Source: Erinaceus europaeus (lineage: Eukaryota > Chordata > Mammalia > Eulipotyphla > Erinaceidae). From it: a stretch of DNA of 64,000 nucleotides. Positions 4,354 through 62,065 of the stretch are shown here, piece after piece. The notes below the pieces were generated by a model. The model saw only the letters and a program-made list of their open reading frames with translations. It searched no databases and was not told the DNA's origin. Positions within the stretch are counted from its first letter, which is position 1; every line of letters begins with the position of its first letter. Made by a program: the position numbers and the translations under genes. The stretch is from assembly GCF_950295315.1 (NCBI RefSeq), contig NC_080162.1, positions 72,112,697 to 72,176,696 of the forward strand, written 5' to 3'.

Positions 4354-4440
4354 ACAGCACAGCACAGCACAGCACAGCACAGCACAGCACAGCACAGCAC
4401 AGCACAGCACAGCACAGCACAGCACAGCACAGCACAGCAG
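4354..4440. repeat. (AGCAC)n pentanucleotide repeat
   Basis: About 17 nearly perfect AGCAC units. The period is five and the unit has no stop codon in any frame on either strand, which creates spurious open frames on both strands. Confidence 0.97.
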
Positions 4441-30516: not shown

Positions 30517-30788
30517 TTTAATTTTATTTATTCCCTTTTGTTGCCCTTGTTGTTTTATTATTGTAGTTATTATTGTTGTAATTGTTGTTGGATAGGACAG
30601 AGAGAAATGGAGAGGGGAGGGGGAAGACAGAGAGAGGGAGAGAAAGATAGACACCTGCAGACCTGTTTCACTGCTTGTGAAGCAACACCCCTGCAGGTGG
30701 GGAGCCAGGGCTTGAACCAGGATCCTTATGCGGGTCCTTGTGCTTAGCACCACCTGCGCTTAACCCGCTGCGCTACAGCCCGACTCCC
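30517..30788 (-). mobile_element. SINE (type 1), first of two at one target site
   Basis: Complete reverse type-1 SINE ('attcccttttgttgcccttgttg ... acccgctgcgctacagcccgactcc'). Target duplication 'aaaaccagatcttttt' at 30501-30516 and 30789-30804, perfect over 16 bp. Confidence 0.97.
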
Positions 30789-30804
30789 AAAACCAGATCT
30801 TTTT

Positions 30805-31087
30805 AAAAAAAATATTTATTTATTTATTCCCTTTTGTTGCCTTTGTTGTTCTTGTTCTATTGTTGTTGTTACTGATGTCATTGTTGTTGGATAGGACAGA
30901 GAGAAATGGAGAGAGAAGGGGAAGACAGAGAGGGAGAGAGGAAGATAGACACTGCAGACCTGCTTCACTACCTGTGAAGCAAATCCCTGCAGGTGGGGAG
31001 CTGGGGGCTTGAACCAAGATCCTTACGCCGGTCCTTGTGCTTTGCGCCACCTGCGCTTACCCCACTGTGCTACTGCCCAACTCCCTT
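30805..31087 (-). mobile_element. SINE (type 1), second of two at one target site
   Basis: Complete reverse type-1 SINE starting in the target copy at 30789-30804. A third, diverged target copy 'gaaatcagatctt' follows at 31088-31100. Confidence 0.95.
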
Positions 31088-54948: not shown

Positions 54949-55245
54949 AAATTTGTATCTGTAATTATTTTACAGATTGGTACTAATTTTTAATTTTGTT
55001 AAATTAAAGAGAGTGGCAAGATATTTACTGAGTGCTCAATGAGAAAGGCTTTCAAACAAGACTACTATATCCTGCTAGACTGTTATTCAGACTAGATGGA
55101 GGCATCAAAACCTTCTAAGACAAGCAACAGTTAAAGGAATCAACTATCATCAAGCCTGCCCTGAAAGAAGTTCTGAAAGTTCTCCTATAAACTATCAGAC
55201 CACCATAAACATGCCACATGTCAGAACACTCTAAAAACTACAATA

Positions 55246-57028
55246 ATGGCATTAAAATATCTTTAATCTATTATATCAATATATGTCAATGGCCTGAATT
55301 CACCTATTAAAAGGCACAGAGTAGGAAGATGGATCAGAAAGCACAACTCAACAATATGCTGTCTACAGGAAACCCACCTAACTCAGCAAGGCAAACACAG
55401 ACTCAAAGTGAAAGTATGGAAAAACTATCATACAAGCCAATGGCCCACAAAAAAGGGCAGGAACAGCTATTCTCATATCTGACATGACAGACTTTAAAAT
55501 ACATAAAATTTAAAAAGATAGGGATGGACACTACTTAATGCTCAGTGGATCAGTCAATCAAGACGACTTGCCAATTATTAACATCTATGCACCCAATGAG
55601 AAGCCATCTAAATACATCAAACATCTACTGAAAGAGCTACAGCAATATATTAACAGCAACACAGTTATAGTAGAGGACTTTAACACCCCATTCTCTCAAC
55701 TTGACAGATCATCCAAGCAGAAAATCAATAAAGACATGAGAGAGCTAAATGAGGAGATAGATAAAGTAGAACTATTGGATAGTTTCAGAGTCATTCATCC
55801 CAAGAAAATGGAATACATATTCTACTCAAGTCCACCGGGTCATTCTCAAGGATAGACCTTATGTTAGGCCACAAAAACAGCATCAGCAAATTCAAGAGCA
55901 CTGAAATCATCCCAAGCATCTTCTTAGACCACAGTGTAAATAAACTAACACTTAACAATCAACAAAAGATTAGTAATTGTCCCAAAATGTGGAAGCTCTA
56001 CTTAACAACTACTTAACAACTACTGGGTCAAAGAAGAAAGAAAGGAAGAAATAAAAATGTTTCAAGTATTCGATGAAAATGAAGGCACAAGCTACCAAAA
56101 TATTTGGGACACAGCTAAGGCAGTACTGAGAGGGAAGTTCATAGCCATACAAGCACACACTAGGAAACAAGAAAAAGCACAAACAGCCTGATTGCACACC
56201 TTGAAGACCTAGAAGAAGAACAAAGGAACCCTAAAGCAACCAGAAGGACAGAAATTACTAAAGTTAGGGCAGAAATAAATAACATTGAAAATAAGAAAAC
56301 CATACAAAAGATCAATGAAAGTAAATGTTGGTTCTTCGAAAGAGTGAACAAAATTGACAAACCTTTAGCCAGACTCACTAAACAAAAAAGGGAGAAGACC
56401 CAAATAAATCAGATAATAAATGAAAGAGGAGATATCACAAGAGACACCGCAGAAATTCAACATACCATGCTAGGCTTCTATGAACAACTATATGCCACCA
56501 AGCTAGAGAACCTGGAAGAAATGGATGATTTCCTAGATACCTATGAACATTCAAAATTAAATAAAGAGAAACTAGAAAATATGAATAGACCCATCACAGC
56601 TAACAAAATTTTAAGTTAAAAAAACCTTCCCAAGAATAAAAGTCCTAGACAAGATAGTTTTACAAGTGAATCTATAAAACCTTCAAAGAAGAACTAATAC
56701 CTCTACTTTTAAAAGTCTTCCAGAAGATTGAAGACACAGGAATACTCCCTTCCAGCTTTTATGAAGCCAACATCACTCTGATACCAAAAGCAGACAGGGT
56801 CACAACCAAAAAAGAAAACTAAAGACCAATATCTCTGATGAACATAGATGCCAAAATATTGAACAAAACTCTAGCCAGCCAGATACAGCAGTATGTTAAA
56901 AAGATTGTTCATCATGACCAAGTGGGGTTTATTCCAGGCATGCAAGGTTGATTTAATATATGTAAATCAATCAACGTGATCCACCACACCAACAAAAGCA
57001 GAACCAAAAACCACATGGTTATATCAAT
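55246..57028 (+). pseudogene. L1 ORF2, first part (endonuclease to N-terminal RT), disrupted
   Basis: ORF2 of L1 nicks target DNA and reverse-transcribes. Visible: endonuclease segment CLQETHLTQQGKHRLKV (catalytic Glu), a short intact stretch at 55538-55855 with IINIYAPNEKPSKYIK and DFNTPFSQLDRSSKQK, and linker/N-terminal RT at 56344-56619 (NKIDKPLARLTKQKREKTQI). RT boxes follow near 56820-57000 in more than one frame. Several stops and frameshifts make it non-functional. It stops where the antisense element inserted. Confidence 0.9.
57017..57028. repeat. Target-site duplication, left copy (12 bp)
   Basis: GGTTATATCAAT, identical to 58408-58419. In the uninterrupted L1 it occurs once (frame ...[16 protein letters not shown]...). 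Confidence 0.95.
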
Positions 57029-58407
57029 TCTTCTTCTAGCGTTTGCCCTTCTTCTGTAGCCAGTCAACAGCGTCAGGTTGAGCCTGATGTAAAGTTTCGA
57101 GACCTCCTTTGAATCTGGAGAGGTGGCAGTCGTTGACTATGTGGGTCATAGTCTGTCTGTAGCCACAGGGGCAGTTCGGGTCGTCTCTGGCTCCCCAGCG
57201 GTGGAACATAGCGGCGCACCGGCCATGGCCTGTTCGATAGCGATTGAGGAGGGCCCAATCATAACGTGCTAGGTCAAAGCCGGGTTGACGCTTGCAGGGG
57301 TCTGTGATGAGGTGTTTATTCTTTACCTCAGCTGACTGCCAACTCTGTTTCCAAGAGTCTGGAACAGAGAAATTCAGTGTAGGCATAGGAGACCAGATTG
57401 GATGACGAGACGTCAAGCGTTGAACAGGGTGGGCGAAGATATCCGCGTATATTGGCAGGTCCGGTCGAGCGTAGACGTGGGAAATTAACTTAGATGATGC
57501 CGCATCCCAACGAATATCTGGCGGGGCGATGTTGCTAAGAACTGGCAGCCATGGAACCGGGGTGGAATGGATGGTTCCAGAAATTATCCTCATGGAGGAA
57601 TATAATTTGAAATCGACCAAGTGGACATGGGGGCTACAGAACCATACTGGGGCACAGTATTCTGCAGTGGAATAGCATAATGCCAGAGATGATGATCGTA
57701 GTGTGGAAGCGCTCGCGCCCCATGAGGAGCTGGCCAGTCTTGCAATGATGTGATTCCTCGCACCCACCTTTGCTGCAGTTTTTATGAGATGTTCGTGAAA
57801 TGACAGGGTGCGATTGAGAGTAACGCCAAGATAGACTGGCTGGGCTTCATGCCGGATTCTTGTATCATCAAGCTGCACATTAAGCTCACGCGAGGCCGAG
57901 GCATGGTGTAGATGGAAAACAGATGATACCGTTTTTGCAGTGCTAGGGATTAGTCGCCATTTTTTACAGTAATCAGATATCAGAGACATGTCTTTCGGGA
58001 GTGTTTCCTCGAGGATGTCGAACTTGGATGCCTGAGTTGCACAGCAGATGTCATCGGCGTAGATGAACTTCCTTGAAGAAGTTTCTGGAAGGTCATTGAT
58101 GTAAATATTAAATAGCATAGGAGCCAGAACAGAGCCCTGGGGGAGGCCACTTGAGACAAGTCTCCATCTGCTAGACTTGTCACCCAGATGCACCCGAATC
58201 TTCTGTTTTGGAGAAGAAACGATATAGTGTTGGCCACCCATGGAGGCAGGCATCTTGAGATCTTGACTAGGAGACCACGATGCCAGACCGTGTCATAGGC
58301 TGCTGTGAGATCAACAAAGACAGCACCCGTCTTTAAATTCTTCTGGAACCCATTTTCAATGTAAGTTGAGAGGGCCAGGACTTGTTCGCAGGTAGATCTT
58401 GTTCGCA
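57029..58407 (-). mobile_element. Non-L1 non-LTR retrotransposon, 5'-truncated, antisense in L1
   Basis: 1379 bp on the minus strand bounded by a perfect 12-bp target duplication. It encodes the RT-to-C-terminus part of a non-LTR ORF2-like protein whose RT signature (GLPQGSVLAPMLFNIYINDLP region; YADD) is of the Jockey/CR1-like group rather than L1 (which reads [18 protein letters not shown] and FADDM in the same window). It is GC-richer and CpG-richer than the surrounding L1. The 3' end has no poly(A): TAG, AAGAAGA, then target. The 5' end is truncated inside the RT domain with a short duplication. The exact clade is not decidable by eye. Confidence 0.93.
57036..58398 (-). pseudogene. Reverse transcriptase of the foreign retroelement, one frameshift
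   Basis: Truncated polymerase of a non-LTR retrotransposon. The upstream frame (58398 to about 58195) carries RT box A (GAVFVDLTAAYDTVWHRGL, catalytic Asp at about 58311) and NTISFLLQNRRF. A single-base frameshift near 58195 shifts to the frame of a 405-codon open stretch (57036-58253). Within that stretch are GLPQGS at residues 36-41, FIYADDIC with catalytic YADD at 65-68, the thumb/RNaseH-less linker VYLGVTLNRTLSFHEHL at 140-156, AEYCAPVW at 197-204, and a Cys-His knuckle (C361, C363, H371, C376) after RTGHGRCAAMFHRWG. Apart from the frameshift no stop interrupts it. The first 17 residues of the 405-codon stretch are out-of-frame translation, not protein. Confidence 0.92.
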
Positions 58408-58410
58408 GGT
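58381..58410. repeat. 17-bp-spaced duplication at the element's 5' junction
   Basis: 'cttgttcgcaggt' occurs at 58381-58393 and again at 58398-58410, the second copy running into the target duplication. It marks the 5' end of the inserted element (minus strand). Confidence 0.9.
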
Positions 58411-58419
58411 TATATCAAT
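58408..58419. repeat. Target-site duplication, right copy (12 bp)
   Basis: GGTTATATCAAT, identical to 57017-57028. L1 ORF2 continues immediately after it. Confidence 0.95.
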
Positions 58420-58770
58420 AAATACAGAGAAAGCCTTTGACAAAATACAACATCCCTTTATGATCATAATGCTACAAAAAATGGGAATAGATGGAAAATT
58501 CCTGAAGATTGTAGATTCTATATATAGCAAACCTACAGCCAACATCATACTCAATGGTGAAAAACTGGAAGCATTTCCACTCAGATCAGGTACTAGGCAG
58601 GGCTGCCCACTTTCACCATTACTATTCAACATAGTGTTGGAAGTTCTTGCCATAGCAATCAGGCAGGAGCAAGGAATTAAAGGGATACAGATTGGAAGAG
58701 AAGAAGTCAAACTCTCCCTATTTGCAGATGACATGATAGTATACACAGAAAAACCTAAAGAATCATGAAG
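58408..58770 (+). pseudogene. L1 ORF2 reverse transcriptase, middle part
   Basis: Open for about 120 codons: [13 protein letters not shown] (RT box A region), [18 protein letters not shown] and [13 protein letters not shown], the catalytic box C of L1 RT. The frame is interrupted at 58771 by the nested L1 3' end and resumes at 60337. Confidence 0.93.
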
Positions 58771-60336
58771 AGCCCAACAACAGATGAGTGGCTGAGAAAG
58801 CTATGGTATATATACACAATGGAATACTATGCAGCTATCAAGAACAATGAACCCACCTTCTCTGACCCATCTTGGACAGAGCTAGAAGGAATTATGTTAA
58901 GTGAGCTAAGTCAGAAAGATAAAGATGAGTATGGGATGATCCCACTCATCAACAGAAGTTGACTAAGAAGACCTGAAAGGGAAACTAAAAGCAGGACCTG
59001 ACCAAATTGTAAGTAGGGCACCAAAGTAAAAACCCTGTGGTGAGGGGTAGACATGCAGCTTCCTGGGCCAGTGGGGGGTGGGAGTGGGTGGGAGGGATGG
59101 GTCACAGTCTTTTGATGGTGGGAATGGTGTTTATGTATACTCCTAGCAAAATGTAGACATATAAATCACTAGTTAATTAATATGAGAGGGGGAAAATCAA
59201 TTGTATGTCTCAAAGTTTTTCAAAACACAAACTGAATCTTTTTAATATATAGGTTGTGTATTTGATATGCGGACTCTCTCAAAAGCCTAGACCAAGTATA
59301 TCAGAAGCATCCAATAGCACAGCTATATACAAGATACTGGATACTGTACAGCAAACCATAACAAAAGGACTTTTCAAAGTTAACCCAATTACCAAATAAT
59401 GTGATGATAACATTAACTATCGATTGTTTTTTTGAACCCTAAGACAGCAGGAACCTCACATCTCCACTATAGTGCCTCTACTTCCCCCAGTCCTGGAACC
59501 ATTGGATAGGGCCCACTTTCCTGTATGCCTCTCCCAATCCATATAAAATAATATTGCATCCGCCGATCACAACCTAACCAACACAATGATTGCCACCTCA
59601 ACATGCTTCACTTCAAACTGTGTCCAGAGATTTCACGTGTGGAATGACAACCCTTCAGATTCATTACTTGGGTGAGACCTTTCCTTTCATATACTCTAAT
59701 TTCATCTCAGGTGGTTCACTTTCTAACAAAGTCCCAAAACCTAGATATACACCAGTTTCTGTGAGAGAGAGCATATGTTCACATGTATCCATAAACTACT
59801 GCAAAATATATACCTGAAAGCAGAAGTACACTAGAGTTTGCAGTGAGTACCTCCCAAACACTTCCTCTCCACTATTCCAAGCTTTGGGTCCATGATTGCT
59901 CAACAATTTGTTTGGCTTCGTATGTTAACTCTCTTTTCAGTCACCAGGTTCCAGATGCCATCAGCATGCTGGCCAGGCTTCCCTGGATTGAAGACCCCAC
60001 CAATGTGTCCTGGAACTCAGTTTCCCCAGAGACCCACCCTACTAGGGAAAGAGAGAGGCAGACTGGGAGTATGGACCGACCAGTCAACGCCCGTGTTCAG
60101 CGGGGAAGCAATTACAGAAGCCAGACCTTCTACCTTCTGCAACCCACAATGACCCTGGGTCCATGCTCCCAGAGGGATAGAGAATGGGAAAGCTATCAGG
60201 GGAGGGTTTGGGATATGGAGATTGGGTGGTGGGAATTGTGTGGAGTTGTACCCCTCCTACCTTATGGTTTTGTTAATTAATCCTTTCTTAAATTAAAAAA
60301 AAAAATAAAGAGCTTCTCACCAAAAAAAAAAAAAAA
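58771..60336 (+). mobile_element. 5'-truncated L1 nested in L1, with 14-bp target duplication
   Basis: Starts with the last 60 codons of ORF2 ([18 protein letters not shown]...LSELSQKDKDEYGM) and continues with the long 3'-UTR family to '...ggagttgtacccctcctaccttatgg' and an interrupted A tail. Target duplication 'aaagaatcatgaag' (58757-58770) and 'aaagaatcctgaag' (60337-60350), 13/14. Its ORF2-to-UTR junction identifies the recurrent 3'-UTR repeats of this window as L1. Confidence 0.95.
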
Positions 60337-62065
60337 AAAGAATCCTGAAGAATCTAGCACGAAGCTTTTGGAAATCATCAGGTAATACAGTAAGGTGTCA
60401 GGTTACAAAATTAACATTCAAAAGTCAATGGCATTCCTCAATGAAACACTAAGTTAGAAGATATTGAAATCCAGAAATCAATTCCTTTTACTATAGCAAC
60501 AAAAAAAATAAAATATCTAGGAATAAACCTAACCAAAGAAGTGAAAGACCTGTATACTGAAAATTATGAGTCATTACTCAACGAAATTGAAAAAGACACA
60601 AAGAAGTGGAAAGATATTCCATGTTCATGGGTTGGAAGAATTAACATCATCAAAATGAATATACTACCCAGAACCATATACAAATTTAATGCTATCCCCA
60701 TCAAGATCCCAACCACATTTTTTAGGAGAAAAAAAATGCTACAAATGTTTATCTGGAACTATAAAAGACCTGGAATTGCCAAAACAATCTTGAGAAGAAA
60801 GAACAAAACTAGAGGCATCACACTTCCAGATCTCAAATGTATTATAGGGCCGTTGTCATCAAAACTGCTTGGTACTGGAACATGAATAGACATACTGACC
60901 AGTGGAATAGAATTGAGAGCCCAGAAGTGAGCCCCCACACCTATGGACATCTAATCTTTGACAAAGGGGCCCAGACTATTACATGGGGAAAGCAGAGTCT
61001 CTTCAACAAATGGTGTTGGAAACAATGGGTTGAAACATGCAGAAGAATGACACTGAACCAATATATTTCACCAAACACAAAAATAAATTCCAAGTAGATC
61101 AAGGACTTGGATGTTAGACCAGAAACTATCAGATACTTAGAGGAAAATATTGGCAGAACTCTTTTCTGCATACATTTTAAAGACATCTTCAATGAAACAA
61201 ATCCAATTACAAAGAAGACTAAGACAAGCATAAACCTATGGGACTACATCAAATTAAAAAGCTTCTGCACAGTAAAAGAAGCCACTACCCAAACCAAGAG
61301 ACCCCTCACAGAATGGGAGAAAATCTTTGCATGCCATACATCAGACTAGAGGCTAATAAGGAGAATATTTAAAGAGCTTGCCAAACTCAACAGCAAGAAA
61401 ACAAATAACCCATCCAAAAGTGGGGGGAGGACATGGACAGAATATTCACCACAGAAGAGATCCAAAAGGTGAAGAAATACATGAAAAATTTCTCCAAGTC
61501 TTTGATTGTCAGAGAAATGCAAATAAAGACAACAATGAGATACCACTTCACTCCTGTGAGAATGTCGTACATCAGAAAAGGTAACAGCAGCAAATGCTGG
61601 AGAGGTTGTGGGGTTGAAGGAACCCTTCTGCACTGCTGGTGGGAATGTCAGTTGGTCCAACCTCTGTAGAGAACAGTCTGGAGAACTCTCAGAAGGCTAG
61701 AAATGGACTTATCCCTATGATCCTGCAATTCCTCTCCTGGGGATATATCCTAAGGAAGCCAACACATCCATCCCAAAAGATCTGTGTACACATTTGTTAT
61801 TAGCAGCACAATTTGTAACAGCCAAAACCTGAAAGCAACCCAGGTGTCCAACAACAGATGAGTGGCTGAGCAAGTTGTGGTATACAGACACAATGGAATA
61901 CTACTCAGCTGTAAGAAATGGTGACTTTACCGTTTTCAGCCGATCTTGGATGGACCTTGAAAAATTCATGTGAAGTGAAATAAGTCAGAAACAGAAGGAT
62001 GAATATGGGATGATCTCACTCTCAGGCAGAACTGAAAAACAGTATCAGAAGAGAATGCACAAGTA
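60337..62065 (+). pseudogene. L1 ORF2, C-terminal part, disrupted
   Basis: Visible L1 landmarks: [73 protein letters not shown] and [21 protein letters not shown] (the C-terminal Cys motif region). Frameshifts occur between these blocks (about 60880, 61100, 61350, 61680). It ends near 'atgcacaagtag'. Confidence 0.9.

Follow-up and report, generated by a model that had tools for sequence, protein, structure and literature searches.

The stretch of Erinaceus europaeus DNA analysed here (64 kb, hereafter the window) contains at 57029-58407 a 1379-bp minus-strand insert, a 5′-truncated copy of a non-LTR retrotransposon, very probably of the Vingi type, that retains part of the reverse transcriptase (RT), the C-terminal region and the tail. 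It lies between perfect 12-bp repeats, the target-site duplication GGTTATATCAAT, with a left copy at 57017-57028 and a right copy at 58408-58419; nowhere else in the window do 12 or more consecutive bases agree at this offset. On the minus strand an open frame of 418 codons plus a TAG stop (57036-58292) abuts the 3′ tail, (AAG)2A, at 57029-57035. The frame contains a GLPQGS box (58131-58148), a YADD box (58050-58061) and a C-terminal Cys-His knuckle made up of CPCG (57162-57173) and HIVNDC (57126-57143), all on the minus strand. The first-pass annotation had described an insert with these motifs, and its boundaries proved exact; the frame, given there as 405 codons, is actually 418 from stop to stop. 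When the insert was shuffled 1000 times with dinucleotides preserved, the longest open stretch was 313 codons, and in 44 other 1379-bp tiles of the window it was 226. Pfam recognized the RT in this frame (RVT_1, PF00078; E = 2.5e-11), and NCBIfam gave only a weak match to a group II intron RT (7.9e-6), below its cut-off.

An upstream piece of the RT is found in another frame at 58196-58407 (minus strand), with an AAYDTVW box at 58283-58303, and a single frameshift near 58196-58216 splits the two frames. The 5′ truncation has removed the endonuclease part seen in longer copies. Because of the missing endonuclease and the frameshift, the copy in the window is dead. At its 5′ junction are eight extra bases (58400-58407, minus strand) copied from a few bases inside the element, where a 13-mer recurs with a spacing of 17. 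These bases are absent from the family at this point, where matches begin at query base 8 (in one case 7) and the alignment has a gap of 8. These eight bases are probably the scar of a template switch. No second copy of the element was found within the 64-kb window, and an Rfam scan of the window gave 0 matches at the gathering score.

The insert interrupts an L1 on the plus strand. Its decayed left part is placed at 55000-57028; within it, 56952-57026 aligned with human L1 ORF2p, and we take the remainder to be L1. The right part (58408-58759) matches human L1 ORF2p with its register kept, and a 132-aa piece of this flank aligns with E = 4.5e-55. On human L1 ORF2p (8sxt_A) the alignment of the left flank ends at residue 598 and that of the right flank starts at 595, the overlap of residues 595-598 arising because the target codons were duplicated. 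In the empty site, with one GGTTATATCAAT copy taken out, the L1 ORF2 frame continues unbroken and in register, which bears out the earlier description of perfect 12-bp duplications of L1 sequence. The 418-aa frame of the insert had no match to L1 at E ≤ 1 and the insert is therefore not an L1, an identity that we also rejected on its tail, (AAG)n and not poly-A.

The same L1 carries a second nested insertion at 58760-60351, with 18 A at 60322-60339 and flanking 12-bp duplications (58760-58771 and 60340-60351) that differ by one mismatch; it is presumably a 5′-truncated L1 3′ end. Elsewhere in the window we noted a tandem duplication at 30523-31085 (unit of 297 bp, 1.9 copies, 87% matches) and a perfect pentanucleotide array, (ACAGC), at 4354-4439 (17.2 copies, 100% matches). 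A hedgehog tRNA-SINE probe gave two matches in the window, one of 111 bases at 88% and one of 80 bases at 90%.

The insert stands out from its surroundings in composition. Its CpG observed/expected ratio is 0.68, compared with a mean of 0.12 and a maximum of 0.255 in 2994 other windows of the same 1379-bp length (overlapping, step 20) elsewhere in the 64 kb, so the insertion is recent. Its G+C content is 0.50 versus 0.43 for the window. We used the insert as a query against its own 2.72-Gb genome, which gave 5219 first-look candidates, and, as in each search, scored the best 40. All 40 were at or near the full length of the query; the window copy matched itself at 100% and the 39 further copies matched at 97%. 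Thirty of the 40 scored matches were excised as loci (29 others plus the window copy). Twenty-nine lie on contigs of at least 46 Mb and one, L024, on a 72-kb contig, and the flanks inspected differ between copies. The other copies examined have CpG observed/expected ratios of 0.63-0.75. Pairwise divergence among the 30 copies averaged 2.8% (1.8-4.1%), a value that is biased low and understates the spread of the family because these copies belong to its most similar ones genome-wide; the sample comes from the best 40 candidates only, and older copies lie outside it.

Of the changes private to the window copy, 5 fall in the 1197 non-CpG columns and 2 in CpG columns; the corresponding ranges for the others are 3-14 and 0-7. 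A 454-codon frame across the fragment is still open in 12 of the 30. Variable sites at codon positions 1/2/3 numbered 85/65/79 for singletons and 26/33/37 for shared sites, giving no clear sign of purifying selection by codon position, as expected of dead copies. The first-pass annotation had called the insert young, of a non-L1 type and nested within an L1, and the CpG ratio of 0.68, the lack of an L1 match at E ≤ 1 and the divergence of ∼2.8% among the closest copies all uphold that description.

Twenty copies were extracted with 4.5 kb of upstream sequence, four more were chosen on their 5′ end with enough sequence to hold a complete element, and five further short stretches were taken by 5′ end, making nine 5′-end copies in total. 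Near-complete copies are ∼3.08 kb long and consist of a short leader, one frame, TAG and an (AAG)n tail. The element in L040 spans 3089 bp and is flanked by a 20-bp duplication, the right copy of which is separated from the tail by a few extra bases. Three others (L052, L053 and L054) extend from base 4 or 26 of the L040 element to its end. In L051, positions 80-797 match element bases 26-743 and are followed by unrelated DNA without a 3′ tail; no inverted element match was found in L051 beyond base 743.

L053 has a single frame of 995 codons (L053:165-3149) that covers both an APE endonuclease and an RT, with Pfam matches to PF03372 (4.9e-11), PF14529 (6.9e-12) and RT (PF00078; 7.9e-29). The APE-like endonuclease lies N-terminal to the RT and was detected by PF03372 and PF14529 in both L040 and L053. 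No RNase H family was found in the L053 frame in Pfam at E ≤ 10. The frame of L052 is open over 971 codons. Since the long frame opens near the start of the element (match start at 81 and frame start at 165 in L053; 84 and 249 in L052), there is no room upstream for a separate ORF1. At the 3′ end the TAG of the frame directly precedes (AAG)n, so the element has no 3′UTR, and this repeat takes the place of poly-A, with n ranging from 0 to 7 by script count in the other copies listed. The RT box of L053 reads YADG in place of YADD although its 995-codon frame is open, and L032 has YAND at this box in an 850-codon frame.

The excised copies also record how the family moves. A duplication of at least 8 bp, no more than 8 bases from the 5′ junction, was found in 19 of the 29 other copies, compared with 6 of 870 mismatched flank pairings used as a control; the script found none in the remaining 10, among them L030, which extends beyond its excised locus. 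Among 28 readable copies there were 27 distinct truncation points. An inverted stretch of the element set against its own 5′ end, the typical mark of twin priming, is present in two of the nine 5′-end copies, L055 (reverse strand) and L058, and absent from the other seven. Duplications, scattered truncations and two 5′ inversions thus point, as scars of the process, to target-primed reverse transcription with the family's own endonuclease. The RNA of autonomous copies would encode an APE-like endonuclease and an RT in a single protein. The endonuclease may nick a loosely chosen site, here within an old L1 after ...TATATCAAT on the plus strand. Reverse transcription would start on the (AAG)n end of the RNA and mostly halt early, and joining of the second strand would leave a short target duplication. 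The activity of both enzymes is predicted from sequence.

We believe, with a probability of about 0.9, that the insert belongs to the Vingi family of hedgehogs (Vingi-1_EE type) as a dead, 5′-truncated copy, mobilised by target-primed reverse transcription. The fit to Vingi-1_EE follows from the agreement of structure, tail, abundance and host type; the name is drawn from structure, host type and the literature, rather than from letter comparison or a tree. Vingi-1_EE, Vingi-1_AAl and the Vingi-1N derivatives of hedgehogs were reportedly described by Kojima, Kapitonov and Jurka in 2011 (Mol Biol Evol 28:17-20). PMC3183009 records Vingi-1N3_EE in Erinaceus europaeus, with 311 copies at <1% divergence. 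Table 1 of PMC12026660 lists 4476 copies (2.23 Mb) of I-Jockey class LINEs for the African hedgehog; these are presumably Vingi, a word that the main text of that paper never uses.

The nearest competitor is another compact single-ORF clade (RTE/BovB, RTEX or Ingi). With a single ORF, a simple-repeat tail and a length of ∼3 kb, the element would suit RTE as well, and a comparison with PDB structures leaves the clade undecided, with L1 and R2 reverse transcriptases matching about equally. However, the C-terminal Cys-His knuckle and the AAYDTVWH and GLPQGSVLAP boxes suit the I/Jockey group, and the RNase H of Ingi has no counterpart in the L053 frame at E ≤ 10. The same Table 1 (PMC12026660) lists RTE-BovB and RTE-X for the African hedgehog as well, at 1333 and 888 copies, yet the I-Jockey count of 4476 is the better fit to our 5219 first-look candidates, 40 of them scored. 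Taken together, a clade other than Vingi seems unlikely. The first-pass annotation had proposed a Jockey/CR1-like element. Kinship with the Jockey group fits the boxes, but the CR1-like part fails on the (AAG)n tail and the lack of room for an ORF1. CR1 and Jockey proper, which carry a separate upstream ORF1, were rejected on the structure of L052 and L053.

Descent from ancient L2/L3 (CR1-group) LINEs that stayed active in the hedgehog lineage is distinctly improbable. CR1 and L2 differ in their 3′ tails and encode ORF1 separately, against the single frame and (AAG)n tail found here; in its favour, many LINE clades have left relics in human, one of them from Vingi (PMC5753468). Contamination, with the assembly fusing mammalian sequence to that of a parasite or another foreign source, might be suspected from the G+C and CpG values of the insert, which differ strongly from those of its surroundings. 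Against this stand the perfect duplication in an L1 whose register is kept, the varying flanks, the 29 of 30 loci on contigs of at least 46 Mb and the 39 further scored copies. Since those 39 match at 97%, contamination is very unlikely, to the point of being negligible, in agreement with the earlier argument from the target duplication. The insert is a genuine copy, young and dead, and its family is most likely a known one.

The first-pass annotation had also put the insert forward as a candidate for horizontal transfer, for example from an invertebrate parasite. As a new case this is not supported: the element is most likely hedgehog Vingi, known since 2011, and PMC3183009 already prints a likely, older horizontal transfer, with families common to several species. 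The published case makes transfer of hedgehog Vingi likely, short of proof. The relics listed for human in PMC5753468 include one of the Vingi class, X12_LINE, and the fossil counts of PMC9004415 include one pre-amniote Vingi protein fossil in human. On the strength of these two, the Vingi clade was already present in mammalian ancestors, and such old relics weaken the case that vertical descent is impossible. No relatives were confirmed in viral contigs, prokaryote genomes, phages or E. coli, collections that are non-animal and silent on animal relatives. A stronger version, in which the family entered the ancestors of hedgehogs by horizontal transfer and is still moving, with insertions that differ between living hedgehogs, we hold only tentatively and at less than even odds. 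If true, such insertions could date the invasion and trace its donor. The long frames of L052 and L053 are still open, although the catalytic box of L053 is altered.

The window copy is most likely ordinary, with its family and the possible transfer already known, and it contributes one more example, in this case cleanly nested in its host. What the genome-wide data supply is the anatomy: a compact single ORF, no 3′UTR, an (AAG)n tail, short target-site duplications and 5′ inversions. To our knowledge, hedgehog Vingi is one of few young non-L1, non-RTE LINEs in placental mammals, which makes it a case on which horizontal transfer can be tested.

Among known systems, mammalian L1 shares with the family an APE endonuclease, an RT, target-primed reverse transcription and target duplications. 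In contrast to L1, the family has a single ORF and ends in (AAG)n instead of poly-A, and its RT bears only a distant resemblance (E = 1.9e-12 with the 995-aa L053 frame, versus 4.5e-55 for the 132-aa piece of the host L1). Ingi, a clade related to Vingi that comprises the trypanosome element and its relatives, likewise combines an APE endonuclease with an RT; it carries RNase H, whereas the L053 frame has none in Pfam at E ≤ 10. The Vingi clade, unlike Ingi, is without RNase H and is its sister in RT phylogeny. The title of the 2011 Vingi paper, as cited elsewhere, terms Vingi ‘Ingi-related’. RTE1_Sar of the common shrew is likewise a non-L1 LINE in a eulipotyphlan, presented as horizontal transfer in PMC6542046; it belongs to another clade (RTE), and the same paper gives no significant hits in hedgehog. 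The closest likeness is to Vingi-1_EE, Vingi-1_AAl and Vingi-1N of hedgehogs, which share an APE endonuclease and an RT, no RNase H, compactness, youth and a multi-copy state with the family studied here. Compared by description, Vingi-1_EE and this family showed no difference, the window copy being a truncated and frameshifted member.
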